IMG/VR virus record: IMGVR_UViG_3300029448_006757
Span: 1 to 25,878 of that record
Reading direction: 5' to 3' (one strand)
From: a virus
Length of the DNA stretch: 25,878 nucleotides
In this document: in pieces, positions 4,687 through 23,485 of the stretch
Position numbering within the stretch: the first letter of the stretch is position 1
How the letters are laid out: every line of letters starts with the position of its first letter
Notes under the pieces: generated by a model
What the model was told of the DNA's origin: nothing
The model's input: the letters and a program-made list of their open reading frames with translations, nothing else
Databases searched by the model: none
Made by a program: the position numbers and the translations under genes

Positions 4687-4715
4687 ATTATAAGCATTTT
4701 TACCAAATTTGTCAA
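4687..4715 (-). promoter_or_regulatory. Consensus sigma70-type promoter, leaderless geometry
   Basis: TTGACA (4715-4710), a 17-base spacer and TATAAT (4692-4687) match the bacterial housekeeping consensus exactly. The -35 overlaps the stop codon of the SDR-like gene. The downstream ATG at 4680 starts six bases after the -10, so the expected +1 falls on or next to the start codon. It would drive the block from the 117-aa protein and RNase H to the left edge. Confidence 0.85.
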
Positions 4716-5311
4716 GTGTTGAATACCTCTCCATTACATATTTTTCCGTCACATATTTCTTTGATAATCTTATATAATTTTTGAGCCGAATCAGTTTCGG
4801 CAAAGTCCGGTGATATTCCAAACGTATCAAATTCTGTGTTGGCGAAACTTTTCATTATGGTATAGTTGGTATATTTGTTACCACTATAATCTGGATATGT
4901 TTCGACGCCTTGTGTGTCTTTGTTAATAAAATCAGACAACATCCATCCAAGTTTTGCCTTTGAGCGAAGTTTTTTTCCTAATGTTTTTATAACAAAAAAA
5001 GGTAACTGTGAACTTAACCAATAAGAATGTTGCCATGCTTTAATTTTTGCCCACAAGTCTAAGGTGTCTATATCTGTTGTAAAATCTTGTGGATTTAAGG
5101 TAGAACCATTCTGATTAAAAAATACAAAGTCTATCTTGTTTTTAACCTTTGCTAATATTTTATGTAACTCTGTGATATGTAATTCTTTCCATTCAATTTT
5201 GTATGTTCCGACAGATCCAATATTGATTACTTCATATCCTGCATCTTCACATGCCTCAACAATACTTTCACTATTGTTTTTGCCACAACCTATTAGTAAT
5301 GCAGTCTTCAT
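4712..5311 (-). CDS. Short-chain dehydrogenase/reductase-like protein
   Basis: I start this at the ATG at 5311 (MKTALLIGCG), which overlaps the radical SAM stop (ATGA). The 199-aa product begins with a Rossmann strand-loop and a glycine motif (GCGKNN) like the SDR nucleotide-binding site. It continues with FFNQNG in the place of the SDR NNAG motif, Ser126 in GWMLSD, and a Y-x3-K pair (Tyr150, Lys154 in YTNYTIMKSF). This is the SDR Ser-Tyr-Lys arrangement, so an NAD(P)H-dependent reduction or oxidation is plausible. It is shorter than typical 250-aa SDRs and the glycine motif is not canonical. It is bounded by 12-bp direct repeats and may be an inserted gene. Substrate unknown. Confidence 0.65.
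   Translation of the reverse strand: MKTALLIGCGKNNSESIVEACEDAGYEVINIGSVGTYKIEWKELHITELHKILAKVKNKIDFVFFNQNGSTLNPQDFTTDIDTLDLWAKIKAWQHSYWLSSQLPFFVIKTLGKKLRSKAKLGWMLSDFINKDTQGVETYPDYSGNKYTNYTIMKSFANTEFDTFGISPDFAETDSAQKLYKIIKEICDGKICNGEVFNT
4720..4731 (-). repeat. 12-bp direct repeat, downstream copy
   Basis: GAGAGGTATTCA, identical to the copy at 5319-5330. It lies at the 3' end of the SDR-like gene and encodes its GEVF ending. Together the copies bracket that gene. Confidence 0.7.
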
Positions 5312-6444
5312 AAATCTGTGAATACCTCTCTCCATGGCTTGGTACTTTTTGTAGTGATCTTATCTAAACAAGATTCATATTGTAGTTTGTTTGGTTGTAG
5401 AATTTCATCCACACAATAGTTTATTTCTGATCTAAGATTCAATTCATGTTCCGGAATAGTTTTTCTAACCTCTAACAATTTATCTACTATACCTTGTTTT
5501 TTATCTGCTGGATAATTACAAGACACTAATTCATCAGGATGAAGCAATAAATTTAGAGTAAGATCTTTTATGTCTTTGCCATGATACCAATATGAAATAT
5601 TATCTGCAACGTCTATTGCATTTATGATACTGAAAATCATATTAACTCGTAATTCAAAATCTGTATTTTCTTGTACATACAAAAAATTATCTATAAATGT
5701 TTTCCAATTGGCACCAGTACGAATATATTCAAATTTTTCATGTGTAGCATCTGCACTCATTGTAAGTTGAACATTGTTAAATGTTTGCAAAATTTTATAA
5801 AGTTTGTTATTTTTGTGCCAATGCATATTTGTATTAATCCTTATTGGAATATCTTTATTTTCCAATTGACTGAACAGTGTTACATTTTGAGGAATATAAA
5901 AAGGTTCTCCACCACTCAAATAAATTTCTTTAATATTGTCCTGCTTTTGCAAAATTAAATTTGTAATTGTTTTAATACTTTCCGGGTCAACTAAATTTAC
6001 ATCTACATTTTCATCTTTTGCAATAAGACTGCTCTGATCTGGATTACACATAACACATCTTAAATTACAAACATTAGACCAATGTAGATCTATAAAACGT
6101 AAATCAAAATGATTAGGGTCTGTATAGTCTATATCTTCAAACATAATTTTACTATTATAATGGTCCTTCAAAAAATAATATCCATCATCATCTTTTGATT
6201 GTTTCTGACAGGCCAAGCAATTTTTATTAGGTATATCATTCAACATGTCTTGTCTTAACTGTGTAATTGTTTTCCCTTTAAGTATTGATTCTATGGATTC
6301 TTCATGCAGATTACCTAAGGTAGTCAAACCTCTAGCACAAGTTTCAACATTACCGTTAGAATAAACTTCAAAGTTAGTCCACGGAACTGCACAAAAATTC
6401 TTAGATTGTTTGAACAATTTAAATTTTGTTTTTGGATCTATCAT
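5308..6444 (-). CDS. Radical SAM protein with N-terminal cysteine-rich (twitch/SPASM-like) segment
   Basis: A 378-aa radical SAM enzyme. The 4Fe-4S/SAM motif CNLRCVMC is at Cys126, Cys130 and Cys133, followed by the SAM-contact motif LSGGEPF. Before the core lies a segment with Cys18 (FCAVPW), Cys36 (NGNVETC), Cys76 and Cys79, which resembles an auxiliary cluster region. In this family that region is written ahead of the core rather than after it. Such proteins are common in marine phages as twitch-domain radical SAM proteins; reaction and substrate are unknown. The start at 6444 overlaps the stop of the beta-sandwich gene (ATGA), and the stop overlaps the SDR-like start. A longer reading to 6495 is rejected for that reason. 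Confidence 0.87.
   Translation of the reverse strand: MIDPKTKFKLFKQSKNFCAVPWTNFEVYSNGNVETCARGLTTLGNLHEESIESILKGKTITQLRQDMLNDIPNKNCLACQKQSKDDDGYYFLKDHYNSKIMFEDIDYTDPNHFDLRFIDLHWSNVCNLRCVMCNPDQSSLIAKDENVDVNLVDPESIKTITNLILQKQDNIKEIYLSGGEPFYIPQNVTLFSQLENKDIPIRINTNMHWHKNNKLYKILQTFNNVQLTMSADATHEKFEYIRTGANWKTFIDNFLYVQENTDFELRVNMIFSIINAIDVADNISYWYHGKDIKDLTLNLLLHPDELVSCNYPADKKQGIVDKLLEVRKTIPEHELNLRSEINYCVDEILQPNKLQYESCLDKITTKSTKPWREVFTDL
5319..5330 (-). repeat. 12-bp direct repeat, upstream copy
   Basis: GAGAGGTATTCA, encoding part of the REVF ending of the radical SAM protein. The identical copy is at 4720-4731, 599 bases away, and both are read in the same frame (GAG GTA TTC). Confidence 0.7.
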
Positions 6445-6884
6445 ACTGTACCTAACAACCAAGTATAAAATGGTGTAGTAAAAGGCATTTCCCAAGTGCC
6501 ATTAAATCCAAATGTTATCCAACCTTTTTGCATTTTAGGAGGCGTGTTGTTTAAACTTACTTGATCGTTATACCAATCTTTAGGATATACAGGATAGAAA
6601 CATACATGATCCAAATGTCTTTTTAAATCTATTCTGTCTACTGTAATTTTTTCTATAGTAACTGATTGCTCATTGATTTCATCATGTCCAGATCTTCTAA
6701 GACATAACTTGTGTGATTTATTTTCGCCAAGTTCTAGTGTAAACGTAATTGTTTTTTGTTTATTAATTACAGTAAGGCCGACGATACATTCATCATCTAA
6801 AAATATTTCTATCATGGGCACACCTGATTGTTCGGTGTATTGTGCAGACAAGGTAATTGAAAACTCTACACTTTCCATGATCAC
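6441..6884 (-). CDS. Beta-sandwich domain protein, possibly carbohydrate-binding
   Basis: A 147-aa all-beta-looking protein. It has SVEFSITLSAQY at the start, a TITFTLELGENKSHKLCLR hairpin, a VTIEKITVDRIDL strand, HVCFYPVYP, and a C-terminal FGFNGTWEMPFTTPFYTWLL. The same pattern occurs in the N-terminal 135 residues of the methyltransferase at 18066-19382 (TFTITAQLRRGGEHDLLVRF; YLGWPGEWRLAMREPI) and in the protein at 1439-1885. I infer a shared jelly-roll module, perhaps ligand- or glycan-binding; no catalytic motif is seen. The start is a GTG at 6884 overlapping the QueE stop, or the ATG at 6878. It sits between queE and the radical SAM gene. Confidence 0.65.
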   Translation of the reverse strand: MIMESVEFSITLSAQYTEQSGVPMIEIFLDDECIVGLTVINKQKTITFTLELGENKSHKLCLRRSGHDEINEQSVTIEKITVDRIDLKRHLDHVCFYPVYPKDWYNDQVSLNNTPPKMQKGWITFGFNGTWEMPFTTPFYTWLLGTV

Positions 6885-7777
6885 GTACCAATGGCATTCC
6901 CAAATAGATAAACATGGACTCTTGCCGCAACATTATAACCACGATGGAATGCCTTTTTTGCAACTTCGCCGGCAGTCATACTTTGTTCTTCTTCCCTTGC
7001 TCCTACAGGCATGACCCATACAGGCCAATCAACACCAACATCTCTAAATTGTTTAACCACAGAGTCAAGTTCTTCCCATTCTCTATCTCTGTGTCCAACA
7101 ACAAATTTAAGTTGTCCAAAGTCTCTTGTTTCTTTGTATTCTGCAACTGTTTCTGGTTTGATTGCTTTTGCGGCTTTTTCTCCTGCTACTGACCAAAGTT
7201 TTGGACTCACTGAAAAGAATACTTCTTGTTCCATGTTAGCCAGAAACTCTTTTGTTGTATCTTTTAACTTTTGTGTGCCGTTGGTCTCGAATGTAATCGA
7301 ACTTGGAGTGTTCTCACGTTCTTGCAAGGATTTCATTATTCCAACTATGGCATCCTGTGTCATCAACATCAATGGCTCTCCGCCAGTAAAACAAAGATGT
7401 TGTGTCTGATCTGACACAGGATGTCTGAACAATCCATCAGGATTGGAATCGTTGCGGAGAATATCTACAATTTTGTCTGCCAACACTTCAGGAGTTTCTT
7501 GCCCCATTAAGTGTTTAAATTTCTTTGCCCAAGTGTATGAAGAATCACAACCATGTTTCCAAACAGGCAAGTCTTCAACTCTGTTTACTGTTTTAGGATC
7601 AAAGTCTTCATATGGTAATTCATAAGTGTCTGGATTGGTTGGATCTATTTGTCCAAACCCGTTGCATTGTAAGTTACACAAGAAAAATCTTATCCATGCA
7701 GTTGGCACACCTGTATAGTGTCCTTCGCCTTGGATAGAGTGGAAGATCTCGGAATAGTAATACTTCTTATCAGACAT
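6881..7777 (-). CDS. queE: 7-carboxy-7-deazaguanine synthase (QueE) with widely spaced cluster motif
   Basis: The radical SAM enzyme that contracts 6-carboxytetrahydropterin to 7-carboxy-7-deazaguanine, the third step towards preQ0. The QueE signature YSEIFHSIQGEGHYTGVP opens the protein, then FFLCNLQC (Cys34, Cys38). The third cluster Cys, in the usual CDSSYTW context, is displaced to Cys77 by an insertion, giving CX3CX38C in place of CX3CX2C. TGGEPL follows at 131-136. At 298 aa it is longer than typical QueE, about 210-220 aa. The motif starts at residue 8, so the ATG at 7777 must be the start. That ATG lies six bases after a TATAAT with no Shine-Dalgarno, suggesting a leaderless mRNA. Confidence 0.92.
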   Translation of the reverse strand: MSDKKYYYSEIFHSIQGEGHYTGVPTAWIRFFLCNLQCNGFGQIDPTNPDTYELPYEDFDPKTVNRVEDLPVWKHGCDSSYTWAKKFKHLMGQETPEVLADKIVDILRNDSNPDGLFRHPVSDQTQHLCFTGGEPLMLMTQDAIVGIMKSLQERENTPSSITFETNGTQKLKDTTKEFLANMEQEVFFSVSPKLWSVAGEKAAKAIKPETVAEYKETRDFGQLKFVVGHRDREWEELDSVVKQFRDVGVDWPVWVMPVGAREEEQSMTAGEVAKKAFHRGYNVAARVHVYLFGNAIGT

Positions 7778-8389: not shown

Positions 8390-8889
8390 GTTATCTGCAT
8401 AGTATATCTATGTTCTATGCCCATGTTGTATGCCGCGTGTGATGTAGTGCCAGGCCAACCTACAACATCACCTGCTTGCCAATCAGCATACACTTGTTTT
8501 TCAATCTGCATCATATGTCCTAGTTTAGCATCTTCTAAAAATATAATATACCTATGAATATCATTTACGTCTTTGATGTCATATGCCTTTAAAAAATTAG
8601 TATAATGATCTCCGTGTAATGGTAATATACAGCCGGGTGGTGTTCTATTAAAAGCAACAGCAACGATGTCATACTTGAATTGGTCCATTACTTCATCTAC
8701 AAACTTGGGCATTGGATTTGGTAAAGCATATACATCATTACTAATCGAATTCTCATATGGTTTATGACTGTATTGCTTAAAAATATCCTCGCCATATCCT
8801 CCAAGATTTAATGCGTAATCTAGATTTATATAATCTTCTGGTTTCCAGCAGACTCTAATGTTTGTTATCAAAGGTATACTCCAATTCAT
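8374..8889 (-). CDS. 2-oxoglutarate/Fe(II)-dependent oxygenase-like protein
   Basis: A double-stranded beta-helix oxygenase of about 171 aa. The iron-binding triad is visible as LHGDHY (His92, Asp94) and the distal His151 in SHAAYN. Arg161 in HRYTMQ is placed to bind 2-oxoglutarate. The run AFNRTPPGCILPLHGD looks like the aspartyl/asparaginyl beta-hydroxylase side of the superfamily. Substrate is unknown: protein side chain, small molecule and sugar are all possible. I start at the ATG at 8889, 35 bases inside the amidinotransferase gene. A TTG at 8871 with GGAG seven bases upstream is an alternative. It is locked between amidinotransferase and DegT-like genes by overlaps. Confidence 0.78.
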   Translation of the reverse strand: MNWSIPLITNIRVCWKPEDYINLDYALNLGGYGEDIFKQYSHKPYENSISNDVYALPNPMPKFVDEVMDQFKYDIVAVAFNRTPPGCILPLHGDHYTNFLKAYDIKDVNDIHRYIIFLEDAKLGHMMQIEKQVYADWQAGDVVGWPGTTSHAAYNMGIEHRYTMQITCSNK

Positions 8890-9835
8890 AATCACGTTCT
8901 AGTTCCACGGTGCAACAATGCGGGCCACCGCTTAAGGATCTTTGATGTCGCATATGAACGGGAATAACAGTGAATCCTTTTTGTTCTAATATTTTTATCA
9001 AGTTAGTTTGTGTTGATTGCATAATAACAGTGTCTTCATCTAGACTTACGCAATTCATTCCAGTCCATTGACTCATCATTGCTTCTGTACCGGCATAATC
9101 CATTTCAATAGGTTCTGGACATTCTATAAGATCCCAGTTTCTCATGCCATGTGGCAAGTCATCTTTACTCTTAATTCTACTAGGATTAATCAACGCAGTT
9201 CCAGGTTTCAACAAAGCAATAGTGCTGTCTAAATGTGAATATGAATACACATCTGAAATAATATGTACATTAAAATTTGGACCTAATAATTTTTGAAGTT
9301 GTATTCCGCCTTGCCAGTTGCCTGTGTTTGAGTGCAAGTATAAGATATCTCTTCCTGCTCTTAAAACATTTGCGGCATCCCACATAGGTTTGTAAGGTAA
9401 TGTTGCTAATTTATTTTTATTCATAATGCATTGGTCTTCATAATCATTTTCATCAAACTGTGTGCCTGTTAGATCATGTGTTACTTCACACATAAATTTG
9501 TGTTCTTCTTTTCTGCAATTCATAGACATAGGAGATGCAATTATTTTGTCATCAACAGTTAAAATATTATCCCTTGGACAATACAAATAGTGATCAACCT
9601 TGCCAACTTTAGGCCTAACTACTTTTGCCCCGAAGTCTTTATAAATGTTTGCTAAAGATTCGAGATCTTCATTTGCTTCATCTATAATATTTTGAGCATA
9701 AGGACCTATAGGAATAGGATCCATTAATGATCTGTCTGCATAATTGATATGTCTTACGCCAATATCATCTGGCAAATAATTGGCACCGGTAGCAATACCA
9801 ACAATAACCTTTTTAACTTTTCCCCATTCGTTCAT
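8855..9835 (-). CDS. Amidinotransferase (glycine/inosamine-phosphate amidinotransferase family)
   Basis: 326 aa, with all family motifs intact. CPRDNILTV matches the PRD strand, AANVLRAGRDIL carries the catalytic Asp163, SHLDSTIALLKPGTALINPSR carries His201, and SGGPHCCTV carries the nucleophile Cys307. The order and spacing match human/bacterial AGAT and StrB-type enzymes, which transfer the amidino group of arginine to an amine through an amidino-Cys intermediate. The acceptor cannot be read from sequence. It heads a tight block with the 2OG oxygenase and the DegT-like protein. It is divergent from a plus-strand homologue with only 23 bases between the two start codons. No Shine-Dalgarno is visible. 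Confidence 0.9.
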   Translation of the reverse strand: MNEWGKVKKVIVGIATGANYLPDDIGVRHINYADRSLMDPIPIGPYAQNIIDEANEDLESLANIYKDFGAKVVRPKVGKVDHYLYCPRDNILTVDDKIIASPMSMNCRKEEHKFMCEVTHDLTGTQFDENDYEDQCIMNKNKLATLPYKPMWDAANVLRAGRDILYLHSNTGNWQGGIQLQKLLGPNFNVHIISDVYSYSHLDSTIALLKPGTALINPSRIKSKDDLPHGMRNWDLIECPEPIEMDYAGTEAMMSQWTGMNCVSLDEDTVIMQSTQTNLIKILEQKGFTVIPVHMRHQRSLSGGPHCCTVELERDYELEYTFDNKH

Positions 9836-9875
9836 TCATTAAATACTTATATAATAAAATGTTACGTCAATTCAA
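9836..9875. promoter_or_regulatory. Divergent start region with weak promoter elements
   Basis: The 23 bases between two divergent start codons are pure AT-rich signal. On the minus strand, TTGAAT (9875-9870), an 18-base spacer and TATAAG (9851-9846) form a near-consensus promoter for the amidinotransferase, with the -35 inside the plus-strand gene. On the plus strand, TATAAT (9850-9855) ends three bases before the ATG at 9859, but its -35 (TTCGTT) is poor. Both would give leaderless or nearly leaderless mRNAs. Confidence 0.4.
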
Positions 9876-10926
9876 AAGATGGTCTCCATGGGATCCTGTA
9901 AAGTCAATCATGCTCGGATCCTGTTATTCAGAAAAGTTTTTCGAGCCAGTTAAAAACCAAAAGTTAAAAGAATCTTTACAAAAAATTTGTATAGAAACAA
10001 ATGAAGATATTGATCGAATAGAAAGAATATATCGAAATATGGATGTAGAGGTCACTCGAACATTGATCGATGAGTCCGAAACAATTGAAGATTATTTAGA
10101 TGACTCAGGAGCATTAAAACACAAAGCATGGAAGCCTAAGTCACTTGTACCACGACCACCTATTATGCCACGAGACTGTCAAGTGGTTATAGGAGAACAT
10201 ATGTTTGTAAACTTAATAGGTGATCGAAACATGATGAAGTCTTTGTTCAACGTAATGGATGATCCAATTGAACAGTGTGTGATTCCGGTTGATCACGGCT
10301 TCAAAGGTTTACATGGAGGACATCAAACATTGATAGGGAATCGATTGTACTTGGATACTGACGCAGGCAATTATGATCCAGAATACAATGAAAAATTTAA
10401 ACGTATTCTTAATGATTACTATCCACAAATACAAGTACATCAGTTAGAAATAGGCGGTCATAATGATTGTTGTTTTCATCCTTGCAAACCAGGTGTGCTG
10501 ATTTCCTTGAACGATATACAGAATTACGATGAAACATTTCCAGGATGGGATGTGCATTATATTGAAGATGCTAATCTTGACAAAGTTGAAGGTTGGTTAG
10601 ATATAAAAGATAAGAATAAGGGCAGATGGTGGGTGCCAGGTGAAGAGAAGAACAATGAATTTGCTGAATTTGTTGAAACATGGCTAACAGAATGGGTAGG
10701 ATATGTAGAAGAAACTGTGTTTGATGTGAATGTTCATATGGTAAATCCTGAAACAGTAATTGTTAATTCACATAACAAAGAACTATTTTCTTATTTCGAA
10801 ACACACAAAATACAACCAATTATTGCTCCATTTAGGCACAGACACTTTTGGGATGGAGGCGTGCATTGTATGACTTTAGATTTATATCGTGAAGGTGAGT
10901 GTGAAGATTATTTTTCCCAAGGATAA
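9859..10926 (+). CDS. Amidinotransferase-family (pentein) protein, the only plus-strand gene
   Basis: 355 aa and homologous to the two minus-strand amidinotransferases. It has an N-terminal VKSIMLG strand, a TNEDIDRIERIYRN helix, MPRDCQVVIG (Asp106), GGHNDCCFHPCKPGVLISL (His201) and GGVHCMTLDLYRE (Cys337). The Asp of the AGRDI motif is not conserved (NRLYLDTD instead). The C-terminus ECEDYF resembles that of the protein at 1866-2906. At least seven arginines use CGA (for example at PPRPP-adjacent, MPRD and GNR positions), whereas the minus-strand homologue next door uses almost only AGA/AGG. This suggests separate origin. It converges on and overlaps the gpt-like gene by 19 bases. Reaction unproven. 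Confidence 0.8.
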   Translation: MLRQFKRWSPWDPVKSIMLGSCYSEKFFEPVKNQKLKESLQKICIETNEDIDRIERIYRNMDVEVTRTLIDESETIEDYLDDSGALKHKAWKPKSLVPRPPIMPRDCQVVIGEHMFVNLIGDRNMMKSLFNVMDDPIEQCVIPVDHGFKGLHGGHQTLIGNRLYLDTDAGNYDPEYNEKFKRILNDYYPQIQVHQLEIGGHNDCCFHPCKPGVLISLNDIQNYDETFPGWDVHYIEDANLDKVEGWLDIKDKNKGRWWVPGEEKNNEFAEFVETWLTEWVGYVEETVFDVNVHMVNPETVIVNSHNKELFSYFETHKIQPIIAPFRHRHFWDGGVHCMTLDLYREGECEDYFSQG

Positions 10927-11336
10927 ACAATCCAGGTAGGCTCTTTATCCTTATCAATTTTTTGAAACCAATAATCAACACTAAATTCTGAAGGTATGTT
11001 GTCATGTATGACAGCATAGTCAATATCTAAATTTCTTTGATCAAACATATCCTGTAAGAATCTAAATGTTTCTCCAGTATCATTTATATCATCTACACAC
11101 AAATATCTCCCATGTGGAATATCATGAATCATTGTAGGTTTATTCACATGGTCACGTAATGAACAATTCACTGAATACATTGGAATATCTAATTCGTGAG
11201 ATATAATTACAGCAGGAATAAGTCCGCCTCTTTGTATACCTATGACTGCTTTATATCCCATGTCTCTGGCATTGTCCGCAATTAATCTACTTGCTTCTTG
11301 TATTTGTGTCCATGTGATGAATATTTTGTCTGGCAT
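10908..11336 (-). CDS. gpt: Gpt-like xanthine/guanine phosphoribosyltransferase
   Basis: A type I phosphoribosyltransferase that joins a purine base to PRPP. Features are FITWTQIQEASRLIA at the start, IQRGGLIPA near 34-42, the PRPP-binding VDDINDTGET at 81-90, and a C-terminal PTWIVYPWEK. The TW..PW ending and the ITW start are those of E. coli Gpt (152 aa; 142 here), favouring xanthine/guanine over adenine as substrate. It would recycle guanine to GMP, which fits a pathway that consumes GTP and displaces guanine from DNA. Its start overlaps the folE stop (TAATG). Its 3' end overlaps the convergent plus-strand gene. Confidence 0.85.
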   Translation of the reverse strand: MPDKIFITWTQIQEASRLIADNARDMGYKAVIGIQRGGLIPAVIISHELDIPMYSVNCSLRDHVNKPTMIHDIPHGRYLCVDDINDTGETFRFLQDMFDQRNLDIDYAVIHDNIPSEFSVDYWFQKIDKDKEPTWIVYPWEK

Positions 11337-12034
11337 TATTTCGGAGCGAATTGTTGTTGCAGTTTTATATTGTCCATAAATTCTTTCTTTGTTGCTGGAT
11401 CAGTTGCAAACGCACCTTCTAACACAGTGGTCTGTGTCAAACTTGAATGTGCTTCAATTCCTCTGTGTTCAACACAACCGTGAGTTGCTTGAACATAAAC
11501 ACCAACATTCTCGGAGTTGGTTGCTTTCATTATTTCTCTACATATATCCATTGCAAGTTCTTCTTGCAGTGTTCCACGTTTTGCACACCATTGTGCTATC
11601 CTTGTATATTTGCTTAAACCTATTAATGTATCTCCAGCAATAATACCAATGTATGCTACACCCTTCACTGGTTGATGATGATGTGAACACATACTTACTA
11701 TCTCTGATCTCACAGTCAACAAACCTTTGTATGCAGTTGTTGAATCATTTGGAAATGCAGTTGCAGGCGGCATTGGATCATACCTACCGCTCATTAATTC
11801 GTTAATATACATCTTTGATAATCTTTTTGCAGTCCCGTTACTATTTGGATCATTTTCCACGTCAATGACTAACCCTTCTAACACCTTTTGAAACTGATGT
11901 GTAAGTTCATTTATCAGCATTTCTTTTTCGCCCTCGTGTATGAACTCACTTATATTATCACCGGCCCAAAATCTTTTGCCTGCTTTTTGTAATCGTTGTC
12001 TTATTCTTTTAGATATTAAGAAAACCTCAGTCAT
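11336..12034 (-). CDS. folE: GTP cyclohydrolase I
   Basis: Converts GTP to 7,8-dihydroneopterin triphosphate, the first step of 7-deazaguanine (and folate) synthesis. The zinc ligands are Cys116 and His119 in MCSHHHQP and Cys187 in THGCVEHRG. GLSKYTRIAQWCAKRGTLQE and the C-terminal IEAHSSLTQTT are family signatures. Length (232 aa) is normal. It lies in the same run as GMP reductase, the QueD-like protein and the DpdA-like protein, which points to deazaguanine rather than folate. The ATG overlaps the glycosyltransferase stop (ATGA). Confidence 0.96.
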   Translation of the reverse strand: MTEVFLISKRIRQRLQKAGKRFWAGDNISEFIHEGEKEMLINELTHQFQKVLEGLVIDVENDPNSNGTAKRLSKMYINELMSGRYDPMPPATAFPNDSTTAYKGLLTVRSEIVSMCSHHHQPVKGVAYIGIIAGDTLIGLSKYTRIAQWCAKRGTLQEELAMDICREIMKATNSENVGVYVQATHGCVEHRGIEAHSSLTQTTVLEGAFATDPATKKEFMDNIKLQQQFAPK

Positions 12035-15552: not shown

Positions 15553-15788
15553 CAATAACCTTTTGCTTTCTTCCATGCTGAGTGCAACACATAAAACCAT
15601 AATCCATTAATGGAAGGTTCTACTAATGCAACAGCACCTGCCTCCCATATACTTGCTCCGGTCATTGTGCTAACAACAATCATTGCTATGCATATGTGAC
15701 CAAATGTGTATATCAAGGCCAGTGCTACACTTGATGTTCTTATAAGTTGTTTTACTGCTCCTTGTATGCCTTGTGTAAATTCTGTCAT
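15552..15788 (-). CDS. Small membrane protein, DUF2061-like
   Basis: 78 aa with two hydrophobic segments, roughly residues 19-43 (SSVALALIYTFGHICIAMIV and on) and 48-68. It starts with a short amphipathic segment and ends with a basic tail (WKKAKGY). The order is an initial basic residue before helix 1, a glycine/threonine turn, a VEPSING segment, then FYVLHSAWKK where DUF2061 proteins have YxLHExxW. This matches DUF2061, a small inner-membrane family of unknown function. The ATG overlaps the DpdA-like stop (TAATG). Role unknown. Confidence 0.65.
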   Translation of the reverse strand: MTEFTQGIQGAVKQLIRTSSVALALIYTFGHICIAMIVVSTMTGASIWEAGAVALVEPSINGLWFYVLHSAWKKAKGY

Positions 15789-17248
15789 TATACTTCCTCA
15801 AATAAGTTTCCAAATTGTGTTGATGCATTCACTGTTTTTTTACCTGTTGCTCCTCTTGTGCCTATTATACTCATCCAATACTTTGAATACTCTTTTATTA
15901 TAGCATCTGCAATACTTCTGTCATCCGTTGCAAAGATGGCTTCAACAATGTCGCGGAACATTATTCTATCAAAAGTTTCATTTACCAACATATCCGGAAT
16001 AATGCCGTTGTCATACTGACGATTTGCTTCTTGCACTGCGTTGATATGCATCCAAACATTATGGCCCATCATGACTGCATATGAAAAAGAATCCCAAGAT
16101 GTTTTGCCTTCTTTACCAACTTTGTTCAAGTCACCTGGTCCATATATGCATATATCCTTTGCTTTTAAACCGTCTGTGATAGGCGAATCTAAGAAACTTG
16201 AATGTTTACCTTCACGTATAAATGCTTCACTAAATTTGGTAGTATCTGTGGATAACTTTTTATCATCTATACTAGGAACCATTCTGTATACCCATTTAGT
16301 TCTGTCTTCTGTTTCTAGTTCACAATAAATTTGTCCGTTTGCAGTGGCAAGGAAAGGAGATGCACAATCAAATGTAACCATAAAGTTTTCATTGTGATAT
16401 TTGCGTACTGCTCTTTGTATGTCGGTTAGTAGTGTTGCCCACTCTAATTTTGATGTGCCAAGAAAATGCATAACATCATGTACACCCTTTTCCAGTAATC
16501 CATCAAAACGTAATGCAACTAATCTTTTTAACACTAGGTGAACATCACACATATTTTGTCCACCCATTGACCAACCATTTAAATGGTTGCCTGGATGTTG
16601 CTTAGGATCAGAATAATGTTTCATATGTTCATACCAAGCATCAGCATCAGCATGATTTTCACCTTGTAAAACATTTAAAAACTTACAAGCACCTGTTCTG
16701 TGCTTCATGAAGTACTCATTGTTTATATCCGTGGCCTTTAGTGCTTCTTCATAACTGCCTACACCTGATGCCTTTGCTCCTTCCGGAGAACGTGCTACCC
16801 AGGCTGGGATATCTAAGATCATTCCATAATCCATCATCTCGTCCATCCAGTTAAGCACAAGTTCACGTTTCTTTTGTGCTTTAGGACATGAAGGATCTTT
16901 CCAATCACCTTCCCATTTACCTTTGCCTATTTGGAAGCCACCCGAATCACCTAACACCCATGATGTTGATCTGTCACGTTTTCTAAACATATCTTCTTTG
17001 GGAGAATCTTTGGATAGATCCAAATCGGCGTGACCTGCTGAATATAAACACCATTTGTATTGGAATTGGCCTTCATTGGGATTCAGATAGTTCAAACTCT
17101 CAACACCATGTTTAAAGTTTGTGGGGATACGTGAAGGATCGACGTAATCGGTATGCATCTGTTTCCCAATGAAAGTAGCGTAAAACCCACTTGTAGCAGG
17201 AAGGAAATGAGCGAAATCCTTTTGCTCTTCGGTAAGGTTTAATCTCAT
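15788..17248 (-). CDS. dpdA: DpdA-like DNA-guanine transglycosylase (TGT superfamily)
   Basis: 486 aa from the ATG at 17248, one base after the clamp stop; a longer TTG reading is inside the clamp gene. TGT-type motifs are in order: VLGDSGGFQIG (101-106 region), MILDIPAW (Asp146), FLNVLQG (192-196), GWSMGG (225-230, in place of the TGT GG loop) and VTFDCASPF (Asp294, candidate nucleophile). DpdA enzymes swap guanine in DNA for a 7-deazaguanine base, and folE, queD-like and queE genes in this window would make that base. The zinc site typical of tRNA-TGT is not obvious. The C-terminus FGNLFEEV resembles a clamp-binding peptide, next to the clamp gene. Confidence 0.83.
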   Translation of the reverse strand: MRLNLTEEQKDFAHFLPATSGFYATFIGKQMHTDYVDPSRIPTNFKHGVESLNYLNPNEGQFQYKWCLYSAGHADLDLSKDSPKEDMFRKRDRSTSWVLGDSGGFQIGKGKWEGDWKDPSCPKAQKKRELVLNWMDEMMDYGMILDIPAWVARSPEGAKASGVGSYEEALKATDINNEYFMKHRTGACKFLNVLQGENHADADAWYEHMKHYSDPKQHPGNHLNGWSMGGQNMCDVHLVLKRLVALRFDGLLEKGVHDVMHFLGTSKLEWATLLTDIQRAVRKYHNENFMVTFDCASPFLATANGQIYCELETEDRTKWVYRMVPSIDDKKLSTDTTKFSEAFIREGKHSSFLDSPITDGLKAKDICIYGPGDLNKVGKEGKTSWDSFSYAVMMGHNVWMHINAVQEANRQYDNGIIPDMLVNETFDRIMFRDIVEAIFATDDRSIADAIIKEYSKYWMSIIGTRGATGKKTVNASTQFGNLFEEV

Positions 17249-17249
17249 A

Positions 17250-17987
17250 TTACTTACTTTGTGCTGGAAGTATGTATTGATATTTGCCAATGCCAGAATC
17301 TAGTTTGATCTGTAATGCACCATCATCTGAAAAACTCATTTCAGCATCAGCAGTTTCAATTAATTTTAATATTTGTGTAACTTGTGCCACAGGCCAGGCC
17401 CATGACTTTGCCAACTCTCCAGTAATGCCTGCTTCAAACACAAACTCTCCTGCGTGTGAAGAAGCATCTCCAAATTTAAACTTCAAGTTTCCATCTTCTG
17501 TAATCACAGTAAACACTTGCTCTTCTGAGTTTGCTTGTGCTTGAAAGTTTAACCTTTGCACCGCTGGCATAGTTGGCTTCATTGTGACGTGCCAATTTAC
17601 ACCTCTAAACTTTACAGATTTAAGTTTTTCATTTACAATCTCCGAATTCATAAATCTATAATCATTTTTGAAATCTTTGTTTGCATTTTCAAAATGTAAA
17701 CCTGTTGGCACTGTGTCACCATTGCGATCTTGTGTGTTCACAGTAATTTCTGCTTTGTCTTTGTATTCAGGACATTTAAGTATAATATCTAACTTACCTA
17801 AGTTAGGCATACCAAATGTACCTTTCATCTCTGCAACAGGTTTGTTAAACTCTGCTTTCACAACAACTGATCTGTCCTCAGCCATTGCATCCATTTCTGT
17901 TTTTGCATCATCGCCCACAATCTTCACAAGGTCAATAAATCCTAATGAATGTGTGTGCTTAACAATGTCTTGTAATATATCCTTCAT
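17250..17987 (-). CDS. 45: Sliding clamp (T4 gp45-like)
   Basis: The replication processivity ring that tethers polymerase to DNA; in T4-like phages it also activates late transcription. At 245 aa it is slightly longer than T4 gp45 (228 aa). The N-terminal helix ILQDIVKHTHSLGFID, the GMPNLGKLDIILKCPEY strand-loop and the final GIGKYQYILPAQ strand match the gp45 layout. The all-beta middle and the acidic overall charge also fit. Start: the ATG at 17987 has AGGAG at 18000-17996, eight bases upstream, and its own sigma70 promoter further up. It is followed one base later by the DpdA-like gene. Confidence 0.9.
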   Translation of the reverse strand: MKDILQDIVKHTHSLGFIDLVKIVGDDAKTEMDAMAEDRSVVVKAEFNKPVAEMKGTFGMPNLGKLDIILKCPEYKDKAEITVNTQDRNGDTVPTGLHFENANKDFKNDYRFMNSEIVNEKLKSVKFRGVNWHVTMKPTMPAVQRLNFQAQANSEEQVFTVITEDGNLKFKFGDASSHAGEFVFEAGITGELAKSWAWPVAQVTQILKLIETADAEMSFSDDGALQIKLDSGIGKYQYILPAQSK

Positions 17988-17990
17988 ATG

Positions 17991-18001
17991 TGTATCTCCT
18001 A
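17991..18001 (-). repeat. 11-bp direct repeat containing a Shine-Dalgarno (clamp copy)
   Basis: TAGGAGATACA, the ribosome-binding site of the clamp gene. The identical sequence at 19402-19392 lies ahead of the GC-richer methyltransferase fusion gene, so the pair brackets that gene. Confidence 0.75.
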
Positions 18002-18010
18002 TATAAAACT

Positions 18011-18039
18011 ATTATAAGAGTAATTAGGTCTAAAGTCAA
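18011..18039 (-). promoter_or_regulatory. Sigma70-type promoter of the clamp/deazaguanine block
   Basis: TTGACT (18039-18034), a 17-base spacer and TATAAT (18016-18011): 11 of 12 consensus positions. It lies in the 78-base gap 17988-18065 and is followed by a leader with a good Shine-Dalgarno, unlike the leaderless promoters at 7784 and 4687. I see no terminator hairpin in the rest of the gap. Confidence 0.85.
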
Positions 18040-18065
18040 ACTCTAATTGCCAATTTTTCTATTGT

Positions 18066-19382
18066 TTATTTTTTGTTTCTCAGTAGATACCACTGGGACA
18101 AACAATTGGTCCAAGTTCGTTGCTTGGTGTCTTTTGCAGGAGTGTCTTGAATCGTGGATCTCTCAACACTAAATCCCACGTTGTCAATAAATTTTCTAGC
18201 GTACTGGCGGCTCTTCTTCCTATTAAACACAGTACTGTGATCTATATCGAAATTACCATCTGGATCAACATGTTGAAAACCAGTCTCCGGATCCGCTTGG
18301 TCTCGGTACAATGGATTTATGCCTGAACGTAGAGAATCATTTTGCTCTTCGTAGTGCAGTGTGAAACCTATTGGCATCCAACCACCTGGCTTCGCAAAGT
18401 CAAATACTGGACTGTTCAGATCTATCCAGGTGTCCGGTACCGTGGACATCTGCATGATCACCCATTCCACGTTACTCTTGCGTATTCCATACATCGTGTT
18501 TTCCCAATCGAGTAACTCGTCAACCTGTAGCAACAAAACAGTGTCTATGTCGTGCTCACGCACCAATCTATCTATGTCTGTGTCATAACCACGATGAAAC
18601 TCCATAGGGAGGTCATGTTGGTTTGCAAACTGATTTAACCCGTTGACGTACATGCCACGTGGTTCCACTCCTACTACGTGTTTGGCGCCGTGTCTTGCGG
18701 CCATGTAACTCCACAGTCCGTGGTTACAACCGATGTCTAAAACACGTTTGCCTTTTAATGCCTTCTCTGAGTTGAGGATGTTGTTTTCGTATTTCATTAG
18801 TGTGTGATCACCAGGCTCCCAGTCCATCATCATGGCACTAGCGTCTTCTCCACTAACACTGACCATCATGTCATGTAGATGAAGTTTGTTGGCATTCTGA
18901 TCCCATAATGATCGAATGTTTGATTTACTGAAGGACGACTTAGGCCCCAATGACTGGAATTCCGCACCACAATCTAGTATAGGCTCTCGCATTGCCAATC
19001 TCCATTCACCGGGCCAACCAAGATATAGATGTGAAACAAGAGTCTCGCCAGTCTCGTATGGTGTGTATCTACACTTGTATATGAGTAGACCCACAGGAGA
19101 ACCCTGCACCTGTAGTGATAGGATCTCTATAGCTCCTTGTGGACCTTGCCTGTCCGTAAACCGCACTAAAAGATCATGCTCGCCCCCGCGTCTCAGTTGG
19201 GCCGTGATCGTGAACGTGTACTCCTCGTCCGGTTGTGAAAATCTATGCTCCCGTGCTTGATCACCAAGACTCACACTTAAACACGGCCACGACTTCTGTG
19301 ACACGAAGTTCTGCATCTCATCCTGCATGTCTACCTTAACAGTCAGAGAAACTGTGACAGAGTGTAGCAAGTGTTGATCCAT
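18066..19382 (-). CDS. Beta-sandwich domain fused to a class I SAM methyltransferase
   Basis: 438 aa. Residues 1-135 carry the beta-sandwich pattern seen at 6441-6884 (TFTITAQLRRGGEHDLLVRF, YKCRYTPY, YLGWPGEWRLAMREP). Residues about 150-400 are a Rossmann methyltransferase with motif I VLDIGCNHGLWS (DIGCNHG 216-222) and an acidic motif II GVEPRG. The acceptor is unknown; glycans, DNA bases and small molecules are all possible. Base composition is clearly GC-richer than the neighbours, with many CGC/CGT/CTC codons. The gene is bracketed by 11-bp direct repeats, which suggests transfer. The Shine-Dalgarno AGGAG is 14 bases from the ATG, an unusually long spacing, as if the RBS originally served another start. 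Confidence 0.8.
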   Translation of the reverse strand: MDQHLLHSVTVSLTVKVDMQDEMQNFVSQKSWPCLSVSLGDQAREHRFSQPDEEYTFTITAQLRRGGEHDLLVRFTDRQGPQGAIEILSLQVQGSPVGLLIYKCRYTPYETGETLVSHLYLGWPGEWRLAMREPILDCGAEFQSLGPKSSFSKSNIRSLWDQNANKLHLHDMMVSVSGEDASAMMMDWEPGDHTLMKYENNILNSEKALKGKRVLDIGCNHGLWSYMAARHGAKHVVGVEPRGMYVNGLNQFANQHDLPMEFHRGYDTDIDRLVREHDIDTVLLLQVDELLDWENTMYGIRKSNVEWVIMQMSTVPDTWIDLNSPVFDFAKPGGWMPIGFTLHYEEQNDSLRSGINPLYRDQADPETGFQHVDPDGNFDIDHSTVFNRKKSRQYARKFIDNVGFSVERSTIQDTPAKDTKQRTWTNCLSQWYLLRNKK

Positions 19383-19391
19383 AGACTATTT

Positions 19392-19402
19392 TGTATCTCC
19401 TA
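19392..19402 (-). repeat. 11-bp direct repeat containing a Shine-Dalgarno (upstream copy)
   Basis: TAGGAGATACA; its TAG is the stop codon of the gene at 19400-20215. It is identical to 18001-17991 in front of the clamp gene. Confidence 0.75.
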
Positions 19403-20215
19403 AATTTTTTCGATCTTTGTTGGCCCTGCTTTAATACTATCCAGTTTACCTGGTTTTTTGATAGAAGCAAAGGAATAAAAATCTTCTATATGATAGAACT
19501 CACACTCAAAATCAAATTTATGTGCCATTTGTTCTAGTAAAGACTGTGTAAGATATGTGTGTTTTTTTGCAACCACATGATTCCATTCAGCCTCTTGATC
19601 AGCATCACTGAAATGGATAAATGCACTTCCGCCTGGTTTGAGTATGTTTTTGAATGATTCCAACAGATTCCGCACTTGTTCAAGGGACAAATAAGGTACA
19701 TAATCTAAGCAGATCACAGACCCCACCTGCCCGTGTGGTATATCCATGTCCGGAATATCACCATGTATTTCTAGTTTCTTATGTCTGTATTGTCTTGCCA
19801 GTATAACATTTTTGGTTTTAAGATATGCATTAATGTATCCCATGTCAAATCTATTAGATAAAATATAACACAAATTTGTTTTAATTCCATTTTCAGTGTA
19901 CATTAAAGTTGTTGGACACAAATACACCACAGGATATTTCCAGTCACTTTGTTTCAATACCCAAGTTTCTATAAAATTTGAAACATTTTGATGATGTGTT
20001 ACTTCCATAGTTTCAAAAAATTTATCATTGAATCCCATCTGAAGACTTTTACCCATATCACTGTTTAGCACTTTATATGCATCATCAGAATGTGAAATGT
20101 ATTTTTCTAATTCAAGAAGATCTTCTTTCAAAGCAGATTTAAATGTGTCAAAATTTTCTTCAACTGCTTGTTTTAAGATCTTAACTGCTTCTTTTATTTG
20201 ATATCGCGACGCCAT
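19400..20215 (-). CDS. SAM-methyltransferase-like protein
   Basis: 271 aa. The C-terminal half looks like the later part of a class I methyltransferase: VICLDYVPYLSLEQVRNLL followed by SFKNILKPGGSAFIHFSD, the usual strand-helix-loop with the LKPGG turn. A glycine-rich motif I is not obvious; NLCYILSNRFDMGYINAYL, where a SAM site would be expected, is divergent, so SAM binding is not certain. The N-terminal 90 residues are a charged helix. It is coupled to DNA polymerase by TAATG. Target unknown; a DNA or small-molecule methyltransferase is possible. Confidence 0.65.
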   Translation of the reverse strand: MASRYQIKEAVKILKQAVEENFDTFKSALKEDLLELEKYISHSDDAYKVLNSDMGKSLQMGFNDKFFETMEVTHHQNVSNFIETWVLKQSDWKYPVVYLCPTTLMYTENGIKTNLCYILSNRFDMGYINAYLKTKNVILARQYRHKKLEIHGDIPDMDIPHGQVGSVICLDYVPYLSLEQVRNLLESFKNILKPGGSAFIHFSDADQEAEWNHVVAKKHTYLTQSLLEQMAHKFDFECEFYHIEDFYSFASIKKPGKLDSIKAGPTKIEKI

Positions 20216-22848
20216 TACCCAAATAATTTATCAAATGTGTTGTCTGCTTCTGAATTTCCGAGATCCCAATCCAACACACCAATTAAGTTGTCCAACTTTT
20301 TGTTTATCAAAGTTGATTCCATTTCATCATCAGCAAACGGCATTTCTTTAAACCAATCTGGAATACGTAATTCATCTGTTGGATATGCAATTGATGTATA
20401 TCCCATAGGGTTGTCTTTCAGTTTACACACGATACATTTTTGACCATCAATGATATCCATCGAGTATCTATCATTATAAACCTTTTTGAGTGTGTTCCAA
20501 TTGATGGCGGCTCTTACGTGTCCAGGCATATTAATTTTGCCTTTACGTTTTTCACGTGTGTGATATTCAGTAAGTTTGTTCACACGTCTTGGCGAACCTT
20601 TTTCCCAGCCTGGCATCTTTTTGAACTCTAATCTAAAGTCTGCAATAAATTCCATTATTTCTTGTTCTTCTTTTCCTGTTAAGACTCTATCAAGGACATC
20701 GGATAAAAAATTTTGTATGTAACTTGGAGTATCCGACCTTTTGAGATCTAATCCCATTGCCTTTATTTTGTCTATTTTGTTTCCTTCTAGATCATAAATC
20801 TTAATTGCATATCTTTTCTTTGTGATGAATAGACCTTTTGAACCTACAACTTCTCTACCTGCTTTGATTAATTTACCATATGTTGATGGACAGTTGAATG
20901 CATCTTGCATATATTTTGTAAATGATTTGTTTACTTCTTGTGCAACTGAATCATAAAGTTGTGTTACAGATTCTTCTGACCATGGAATGTTGCCTGCATC
21001 AATTTCTTCTTTCAAAGGAGTATATGCTGAAAAATAAACAGAGTCAGTATCACCATAAATCACTGCTGGGCCAACGTAATCATATGTGCCGCAAATAATT
21101 TCATTTGTTTTGGCAGCCATGTGTTTTGTAATACATCTACCAGTCAATGTAGTTGATTGTCCTATCCTAATATCAAAAAATCTACAACCTGGATTTAACA
21201 ATGCACCATACAAGGAATTTAAGTTAATCTTTTTGACCAACTGCCTTTTGTCCCAAAACTCTTGTTCTACTTTATTACCGGCTTCTATTGCTTGTTGGAG
21301 TTTACCTTGCATCTCTTTTCTCTCTGCATACCAACGTTCTAACAATCCTGGAATCACGCCAGCAAATTCATGTGTAAAAATTGTGCCATTAGCACTTAGG
21401 AACCACGGTTTGCCTTGCTCATAAATTAAGTCATGCACTTCCGCCGCACTTAATATATTAGACTCCCCATTCTCCCAATCGATAGTAATACTTTGTGCTC
21501 TGTCTTTACGCATCACGGCACTGTATTCTAATGTACCAAACTGACCTTCCCATGCTCCAGCAAAACTTATTTTCTTTGCCATTTTATCATCAATAAACTC
21601 TTCTGTGAGATCCTGTCGTAGTTGTCCTACAATAGTTTCATTACCCATATTAAGTGCTCTAATCACACTCGGATACAGTGAATTAATATCAATTGACCCA
21701 ATCCAATCATGCAATCCTTTCTTAGGATATGCCACGTAAGCACCTGCCGCCGGATCTGATCCTGGTTCGCGTCTGACTCTATCAGGAACAACCATACCAC
21801 GTCTGTGTGCTTCGTTGATTATACCTTGTTCCGTCACTGCCACAGCACCCATTGTAGTTTGGATCAATACTGTGTTTTGGTGTGCTAGTTCATTTGATAG
21901 ATCAATAAATTTAAGTTTTGCATCAAGTCTGCCTAGCAGTGCTGTATCTTGCCTATTATACTCAATAAATTTTACAAAGTCTTCATTATATAATTGATCA
22001 AGTGTACCTTCATAAGGCGTCTTTTGTTCACCAAGTTCATGTTTAGATATAAAGTCTAATGCGTAAGAATGTCTTTCTTCATAAGTGTATTTTCTATAAA
22101 GTTGCATGTAGTCTAAATGCACCCTGCCAATAATATCATATGTGACTTCTTCATTACCAAAACGTTCAAACGTTCTTTTGCGTGGAAATGTATTCCACAA
22201 ACACAAACGTCTTGTGTCATCTTTGCTTAACACTTTGGCAATTCTATGGACAGTATATGGAATATCAAAGCCTTCTGAGTTCCAGCCTGATATCACATCA
22301 GCATCTTCTATTATTGTAATAAACTTATCTAACATGTCTGCTTCATCAGGGCATAACATTGTGTTTTCAAATTGTTGTTCAACAATTTCTGGATTAGGAA
22401 AGTTCTTTGGTGGCACTGCAAGAGTAATCAATTGATCTAACCAATCCAAGTATACTGTTACAGAAATAATCGGAGACCATGCATCAGCAGGTTTGGCATA
22501 CCCTTTAGCAGGATCAAAGTCTACCTCAATATCAAAAAATGCACATTGTAATTTTGGAGTCTCTTTTCCAAGATAGTTTTCTTCGAGACATCTGAAAATT
22601 GGATTTACATCTGATTCATACGTCTTTTGATCTTTGTGAAATGCAAGTTCACGTTTGAATTCTTTGCCCTGTTTTGTTGCTATCCTACTTACAGGATTAC
22701 CATAGATACTTTTGTATTTGCCTTTTGGATCATCGTAATAAGCCACATAACGAGCAGGATATTCTGTGAAATATCTTTTGCCATCTCTTCTTTCAACCAC
22801 AGATATCTTGTCTGCTTCCCTATCAAAAAGTGCGTCGACATAACTCAT
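20215..22848 (-). CDS. 43: Family B DNA polymerase (T4 gp43-like)
   Basis: The replicative polymerase with 3'-5' proofreading, 877 aa (T4 gp43 is 898). Exonuclease motifs: AFFDIEVDF (Asp106, Glu108), SGWNSEGFDIP (187-197) and YNRQD (297-301). Polymerase motifs: SIDINSLYPS (motif A, ending at 394), KINLNSLYG (motif B, 540-548), YGDTDS (motif C, 598-603) and TKKRYAIKI. The final residues NTFDKLFG form a C-terminal clamp-binding-type peptide, as expected for gp43. The ATG at 22848 overlaps the stop of the small membrane protein (ATGA) and has no clear Shine-Dalgarno, so translation is likely coupled. Confidence 0.97.
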   Translation of the reverse strand: MSYVDALFDREADKISVVERRDGKRYFTEYPARYVAYYDDPKGKYKSIYGNPVSRIATKQGKEFKRELAFHKDQKTYESDVNPIFRCLEENYLGKETPKLQCAFFDIEVDFDPAKGYAKPADAWSPIISVTVYLDWLDQLITLAVPPKNFPNPEIVEQQFENTMLCPDEADMLDKFITIIEDADVISGWNSEGFDIPYTVHRIAKVLSKDDTRRLCLWNTFPRKRTFERFGNEEVTYDIIGRVHLDYMQLYRKYTYEERHSYALDFISKHELGEQKTPYEGTLDQLYNEDFVKFIEYNRQDTALLGRLDAKLKFIDLSNELAHQNTVLIQTTMGAVAVTEQGIINEAHRRGMVVPDRVRREPGSDPAAGAYVAYPKKGLHDWIGSIDINSLYPSVIRALNMGNETIVGQLRQDLTEEFIDDKMAKKISFAGAWEGQFGTLEYSAVMRKDRAQSITIDWENGESNILSAAEVHDLIYEQGKPWFLSANGTIFTHEFAGVIPGLLERWYAERKEMQGKLQQAIEAGNKVEQEFWDKRQLVKKINLNSLYGALLNPGCRFFDIRIGQSTTLTGRCITKHMAAKTNEIICGTYDYVGPAVIYGDTDSVYFSAYTPLKEEIDAGNIPWSEESVTQLYDSVAQEVNKSFTKYMQDAFNCPSTYGKLIKAGREVVGSKGLFITKKRYAIKIYDLEGNKIDKIKAMGLDLKRSDTPSYIQNFLSDVLDRVLTGKEEQEIMEFIADFRLEFKKMPGWEKGSPRRVNKLTEYHTREKRKGKINMPGHVRAAINWNTLKKVYNDRYSMDIIDGQKCIVCKLKDNPMGYTSIAYPTDELRIPDWFKEMPFADDEMESTLINKKLDNLIGVLDWDLGNSEADNTFDKLFG

Positions 22849-23069
22849 ACAATATAGTTTAACACAATCCCTCCTGTGCCTACAAGGAATAAAACAGCAT
22901 TTGTAACAATCAATGACGGTTCACGCCACATACAAGAAACAGCCAGCCATATGAGACCTCCTAGTGCTAGTATGATAGCACCAAGCGGGTATATGCCAAA
23001 GGCATTAATGCCTGTGCCTACAATCAGAGTTGCAGTGGCTAGCCATTTAAGTAATGTGTCTATTTTCAT
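22845..23069 (-). CDS. Small membrane protein (74 aa, about three TM segments)
   Basis: Unrecognised family. Hydrophobic stretches at about residues 8-27, 29-47 and 53-73 alternate with short loops; WREPSLIVTN marks the turn into the last segment. Small three-helix proteins of this type occur in marine T4-like phages, and no function is assigned. It starts in an ATGA overlap with pseudoazurin and ends in an ATGA overlap with DNA polymerase, so it links a periplasmic electron carrier to the replication block in one transcript. Confidence 0.68.
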   Translation of the reverse strand: MKIDTLLKWLATATLIVGTGINAFGIYPLGAIILALGGLIWLAVSCMWREPSLIVTNAVLFLVGTGGIVLNYIV

Positions 23070-23485
23070 AAAGAGTCAAGTAATTCTGCTAACTTCTTTT
23101 TTGACTTGCCCATTGCTTTTGCTCCAGCAATCGAATCTTTGTTTGAAAGATCACCACCAACAACTACCAGTCCGATCATGCCCATAGACTTATGTGGTGT
23201 ACAAACGTAATAGTATATGCCTGGGGTGTCGAATGTATGTGAGAACTCTTTATTCATTTTACTTTTTTTTGGCAATGTTGCTCCTGGTGGGCCGGCAACA
23301 AATTCAACATTGTGTCCTTTGGAAGTTGGTAACCAAGTTATTGTGTGTGCAACATCAACATTCACAATGTCTTCTGAGTAAACCATTTTGGCTCCATCAT
23401 CACGTTTGTTCAACATGTCGATACTGTGTTCTGCATATGCAGGTGTTACAAATAAAAAAACTAATAGTGTAATAATGTATTTCAT
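23066..23485 (-). CDS. Pseudoazurin-like type 1 copper protein
   Basis: 139 aa with a signal peptide (MKYIITLLVFLFVTPAYA, cleavage expected after residue 18), so the mature protein is periplasmic. All type 1 copper ligands are present: His58 in KGHNVEFV, Cys95 and His98 in YYVCTPHKSMGM, and Met103. HSIDMLNK at the mature N-terminus and the helical C-terminal extension (IAGAKAMGKSKKKLAELLDSL region) are those of pseudoazurin rather than plastocyanin. Pseudoazurins shuttle electrons to cytochrome oxidases or denitrification reductases. A phage copy would be an auxiliary metabolic gene that keeps host respiration going. AAGGAG precedes the ATG. It follows dsbA and is coupled to the membrane protein. 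Confidence 0.9.
   Translation of the reverse strand: MKYIITLLVFLFVTPAYAEHSIDMLNKRDDGAKMVYSEDIVNVDVAHTITWLPTSKGHNVEFVAGPPGATLPKKSKMNKEFSHTFDTPGIYYYVCTPHKSMGMIGLVVVGGDLSNKDSIAGAKAMGKSKKKLAELLDSL

Follow-up and report, generated by a model that had tools for sequence, protein, structure and literature searches.

The 25,878-nucleotide stretch of viral DNA analysed here (IMG/VR record IMGVR_UViG_3300029448_006757, positions 1 to 25,878; hereafter, the window) carries on its minus strand a DNA polymerase gene, a gene for a 271 amino acid protein, a gene for a 438 amino acid protein and a sliding-clamp gene, in that order. The features of the locus are as follows, listed from upstream to downstream on that strand.

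20215–22848, minus strand: family B DNA polymerase, 877 aa.
19400–20215, minus strand: 271-aa methyltransferase-like gene, apparently fast-diverging, with about 2 residues lost through the insertion.
18059–19409, minus strand: inserted segment, about 1351 bp, with ends that are ambiguous within the repeated AAAAATT.
19403–19409, minus strand: left AAAAATT copy, within GAAAAAATT, which encodes the last residues of the 271-aa protein.
19392–19402, minus strand: left TAGGAGATACA, which provides the 271-aa gene with its new stop and the inserted gene with its ribosome-binding site.
18066–19382, minus strand: 438-aa gene, with an N-terminal beta-sandwich-like domain and a SAM-dependent methyltransferase domain.
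18951–19382, minus strand: N-terminal domain, aa 1–144, predicted to be all-beta (mean pLDDT 66, pTM 0.66).
18069–18815, minus strand: methyltransferase domain, aa 190–438, with SAM motif VLDIGCNHGLWS.
18052–18058, minus strand: right AAAAATT copy, within ATAGAAAAATT, directly before the native tail GGCAATTAG.
18043–18051, minus strand: GGCAATTAG, the remnant of the final codons and stop with which the ancestral 271-aa gene ended, now noncoding; the equivalent in relative L003 is GGCGATTAG.
18011–18039, minus strand: ancestral clamp promoter, TTGACT-17-TATAAT, kept in relatives with an empty site.
17991–18001, minus strand: right TAGGAGATACA, the ancestral clamp ribosome-binding site.
17250–17987, minus strand: sliding clamp, 245 aa, phrog_12062; some phage relatives carry the annotation PCNA or DNA polymerase III sliding clamp.

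An IMG/VR search with the clamp as query yielded 80 loci. The five nearest of those with the 271-aa gene (L001, L002, L003, L004 and L023), with 91–97% amino-acid identity to the window in polymerase and clamp, have the order polymerase, 271-aa gene, clamp, without the 438-aa gene. In L001, L003 and L023 the clamp comes directly after the 271-aa gene and has a single copy of TAGGAGATACA before it, which is the arrangement that the original prediction had expected of relatives; the same place is occupied by AAGGAGATACA in L002 and by CAAGGAGATACA in L004. The 271-aa gene is likewise present without the 438-aa gene in a second set of loci (L008–L013, L016 and L073), and in L005, L006, L007, L014, L015, L017 and a more distant clade the clamp leader comes directly after the polymerase. 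Across the whole contigs of 29 relatives, which are mostly fragments, nothing matched the 438-aa protein. A tree of polymerase and clamp places the window nested within the clade of L001, L002, L003, L023 and L004 (support 99/97 and 100/99), and one gain in the lineage of the window is the simplest reading of the relatives and the tree.

The content of the gap between polymerase and clamp varies among the relatives, being empty, occupied by the 271-aa gene, or, in L008, occupied by two extra genes and the 271-aa gene. The extra pair in L008 (3022–4108) follows the polymerase and precedes the 271-aa gene; one of the two is weakly kinase-like and the other encodes a cytidylyltransferase. On the other side of the clamp, between it and the 488-aa gene, L005 carries an FTR1-type iron permease gene (5740–6399; PF03239, 105 bits), and L006 has a gap of the same size.

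The 438-aa gene had been described as GC-richer than its neighbours, and per-gene profiles of GC and codon usage, taken against window genes of at least 140 codons, bear this out. Its GC is 0.460 versus 0.352 ± 0.027 for the other window genes (z = 3.9) and its synonymous-codon deviation (z = −7.9) is the most atypical among the genes compared. At third codon positions the difference is larger (GC3 0.476 versus 0.265 ± 0.034; z = 6.3), and it is on this account that we regard the gene as foreign. The empty sites of the five nearest relatives together with the foreign composition uphold the proposal of a foreign insertion: a methyltransferase gene of foreign origin has entered the genome of a large marine phage, between the DNA polymerase block and the gene for the sliding clamp.

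Comparison with the empty sites places the seam. The empty site of L003 reads ...GAAAAAATT GGCGATTAG AG TTTGACTTTAGACCTAATTACTCTTATAATAGTTTTATATAGGAGATACACAT ATG. In the window, the sequence to the left of the inserted gene is ...ATCGAAAAAATT TAGGAGATACA..., and that to its right is ...ATAGAAAAATT GGCAATTAG AG, after which promoter and leader are as in L003; the junction is AAAAATTTAGGAGATACA. The old tail of the 271-aa gene, GGCAATTAG, is left stranded on the right side of the insert. The clamp promoter and the right-hand TAGGAGATACA are ancestral, since both precede the clamp in the empty-site relatives. Common to both seam ends is an exact 7-bp AAAAATT inside GAAAAA(A)TT, with the right-hand A-rich copy imperfect outside the 7-mer. 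When the flanks are joined at AAAAATT, the product aligns to the empty sites of L001, L003 and L023 with 1 gap column and to that of L002 with 3; the fit to L004 is poorer, with 26. As a specific signal the 7-mer is weak (p ~0.02, from the anchored match of random window 18-mers), and the A-rich match as a signal of the junction is suggestive only.

We consider it highly probable that an insertion took place and that its site lies in the last codons of the 271-aa gene, a judgement that does not extend to the substrate of the encoded enzyme. A foreign gene of ~1.35 kb entered these codons upstream of the conserved clamp promoter, in this lineage only, as sampled. A junction at the short A-rich AAAAATT is what illegitimate recombination, or template switching at microhomology in the course of phage replication, would be expected to leave. 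The insert supplied a new stop codon to the 271-aa gene, at the cost of two residues, as well as a ribosome-binding site.

Other histories would produce a similar arrangement. An unsampled related phage that already had both genes could have donated the segment through homologous recombination within the 271-aa gene, in which case the A-rich repeat would be incidental or a trace of the earlier event. The 271-aa gene shares ~53–86% nucleotide identity with close relatives per 150-base bin, against mostly 80–95% for its neighbours; it thus appears to be a fast-diverging or swapped gene, and exchange in the slot may be frequent. However, its GC3 of 0.261 in the window is not foreign, and no donor phage with both genes was found, and we judge this route unlikely. 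Deletion between the same short repeats would also give the same empty site, and ambiguity between insertion and deletion of that kind has been described for a mycobacteriophage gene (PMC3029335). A 438-aa gene that was ancestral in the clade would, however, have to be lost repeatedly across nested branches, and its composition is still foreign, which makes such a history very improbable. An assembly chimera, in which the assembler joined a gene from another organism, retains some probability because the insert is known from one genome only, and the foreign composition and the short A-rich homology at the seams would suit it. Yet the assembler would have had to err twice, independently, at a single site; the reading frames are intact, the ribosome-binding site is in place and the sole homologue found sits in another viral contig, and we give this explanation little credence.

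The original prediction had drawn the seam at an 11-bp direct repeat, TAGGAGATACA, whose two copies are exact, lie where it had placed them and are the only two in the window. They take in the TAG stop of the 271-aa gene at one end and the clamp ribosome-binding site at the other, and bracket the gene, and relatives have a single copy there. This repeat is not the recombination site: a collapse of the 11-mers would delete a promoter that is retained in the empty-site relatives. That a gene and its promoter were inserted by recombination at TAGGAGATACA, such that removing one copy restores the ancestral state, is barely credible and is refuted by the empty sites, given that in every empty-site relative the clamp promoter still separates the 271-aa gene from the single copy, and that the 11-mer join is without ~50 bp that the relatives have (49–51 gap columns against the empty sites; 51 versus 1 for the AAAAATT join). 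Nor is the 11-mer rare as a repeat: the AT-rich window holds 31 exact direct repeats of at least 11 bp with a spacing of 100–1500 bp, and another gene, at 4712–5335, is also flanked by an 11-mer near both ends. The 11-mer was also considered as a common ribosome-binding site of these phages and rejected as such, counts of AGGAGATACA in three related contigs being 1–3 per contig. The case counsels caution: before short repeats at ribosome-binding sites are named as seams, they should be checked against empty sites.

As had been pointed out, the ribosome-binding sites differ in spacing, with 14 bases between AGGAG and ATG for the 438-aa ORF and 8 for the clamp. The suggestion that the insert brought a promoter with it did not stand: the strongest promoter-like site, TTGACT-17-TATAAT, is ancestral, lies downstream of the 438-aa gene and serves the clamp. 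Promoter-like sites around the 438-aa gene are at chance level (23 versus 19.6 ± 4.7) in a scan that a phage-specific promoter type would escape, and no terminator-like site was found 3' of the gene on its strand. Since the insert has a ribosome-binding site and no identifiable promoter, read-through from the polymerase block is probably how the 438-aa gene is expressed; the clamp keeps its own promoter. Translational coupling may perhaps contribute, via the new TAG stop, which lies 17 bases ahead of the ATG of the 438-aa gene.

The 438-aa protein matches Methyltransf_9 and FtsJ above the Pfam cut-offs, and motif I and the acidic end of strand 2 of class I SAM-dependent methyltransferases are present (VLDIGCNHG...GVEP). 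Scores against TIGR04290 (43.8 of 300 bits) and CmoB (32.5 of 209 bits) fall far under the NCBIfam cut-offs. The resemblance to TIGR04290 and CmoB-like proteins (Methyltransf_9, PF08003) lies in the SAM-binding motif region, at approximately aa 190–290, and is limited to that part; unlike them, the 438-aa protein has an extra N-terminal beta domain. A structure model of the full-length protein is of low confidence (pLDDT 40.5). In a fold search, the N-terminal domain gave weak C2/PLAT-like and phage beta-sandwich matches, none with E < 0.001. This domain may hold a substrate or a partner. The proposal that the 147-aa and 169-aa proteins of the window contain the same beta domain was unsupported by direct search.

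Single-protein searches of viral contigs, isolate phages and GTDB-genome contigs revealed no relative of the 438-aa protein, and matches on plasmids were to generic methyltransferases. Profile searches returned one true relative, in a distant viral contig of 44.9 kb (G030), which was also the only one recovered by a motif scan. There both domains are encoded in two overlapping frames, representing split genes or a frameshift, in the GC-richest stretch of the contig. A protein of this kind, with beta domain and methyltransferase, is rare, with one other viral contig having both halves, and the two cases suggest that the methyltransferase gene travels between large phages, fused or split. A TRAP-transporter-type solute-binding protein gene (DctP, PF03480) was seen near the methyltransferase relative in a viral contig (L092, 878–1792).

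As to function, we tentatively favour methylation of a glycan or other small molecule that decorates the virion or the host surface. This is the most likely role because of the cargo nearby, namely a DegT-type aminotransferase in the window, the cytidylyltransferase in L008 and an FkbM methyltransferase in G030. A role in DNA-base modification is possible because the window has GTP cyclohydrolase I and QueE-like genes, and phages in which guanine is modified to 7-deazaguanine are known (PMC6884629), but the transglycosylase that this would require was not confirmed. It is doubtful that this phage group uses the stretch from the polymerase gene to the clamp promoter as a recurrent landing site for swapping enzymes of one modification pathway, with the beta-domain methyltransferase adding a new modification to, for example, a deazaguanine-type DNA base, as the FolE, QueE-like and transglycosylase-like genes nearby might suggest.

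A possible 7-deazaguanine DNA modification set would comprise the QueE-like gene (6881–7777), the GTP cyclohydrolase I (FolE) gene (11336–12034) and an unclassified 488-aa gene beside the clamp (15788–17254). The last of these resembles tRNA-guanine transglycosylase or DpdA by eye, and its assignment as a DpdA-type transglycosylase was unconfirmed by Pfam, PHROGs, NCBIfam and PDB sequence searches. Elsewhere in the window, two cassettes, at 1443–2900 (169-aa gene and 346-aa phrog_25854 gene) and 4718–6880 (207-aa, twitch-type radical SAM and 147-aa genes), are shared with the L003 contig and absent from the L001 and L002 contigs by nucleotide alignment. There are three phrog_25854 paralogues (1866–2906, 8855–9835 and 9859–10926), one of them on the strand opposite to the other window genes and one with weak similarity to arginine deiminase or dimethylargininase. 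A plastocyanin/azurin-type copper protein (PF00127) with an apparent signal peptide is encoded at 23066–23485 of this phage genome.

The locus offers a useful example of how an uncultured large phage gained a single gene cleanly, with empty sites to match and with the promoter of a replication gene spared. The gain is an ordinary kind of phage event, and it bears comparison with known systems. The original prediction had called the insert a moron, a term of Hendrix et al. (quoted in PMC3029335 and PMC2784084) that in the strict sense typically denotes a gene with its own promoter and terminator. Like phage morons, the 438-aa gene is of foreign composition, is present in one genome and is absent from close relatives, where the genes on either side are contiguous. 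Unlike them, it has no promoter or terminator that we could find, the neighbouring promoter being the ancestral one that serves the clamp. The insert is not a strict moron, because no identifiable promoter or terminator came with it. Gene 68 of mycobacteriophage Island3 (PMC3029335) is similarly an additional gene at whose seam the preceding gene has its end repeated; the similarity there extends over ~50 bp or 18 residues, whereas here it is confined to ~7–12 A-rich bases. The promoter-terminator (PeSL) cassettes of T4-type phages (PMC4503421) resemble the present case, that of a large phage whose replication genes are T4-like, in that genes are exchanged beside a promoter. A PeSL-flanked module has promoter and stem-loop cassettes at its ends, whereas here there is one promoter, on one side only, without a stem-loop terminator.
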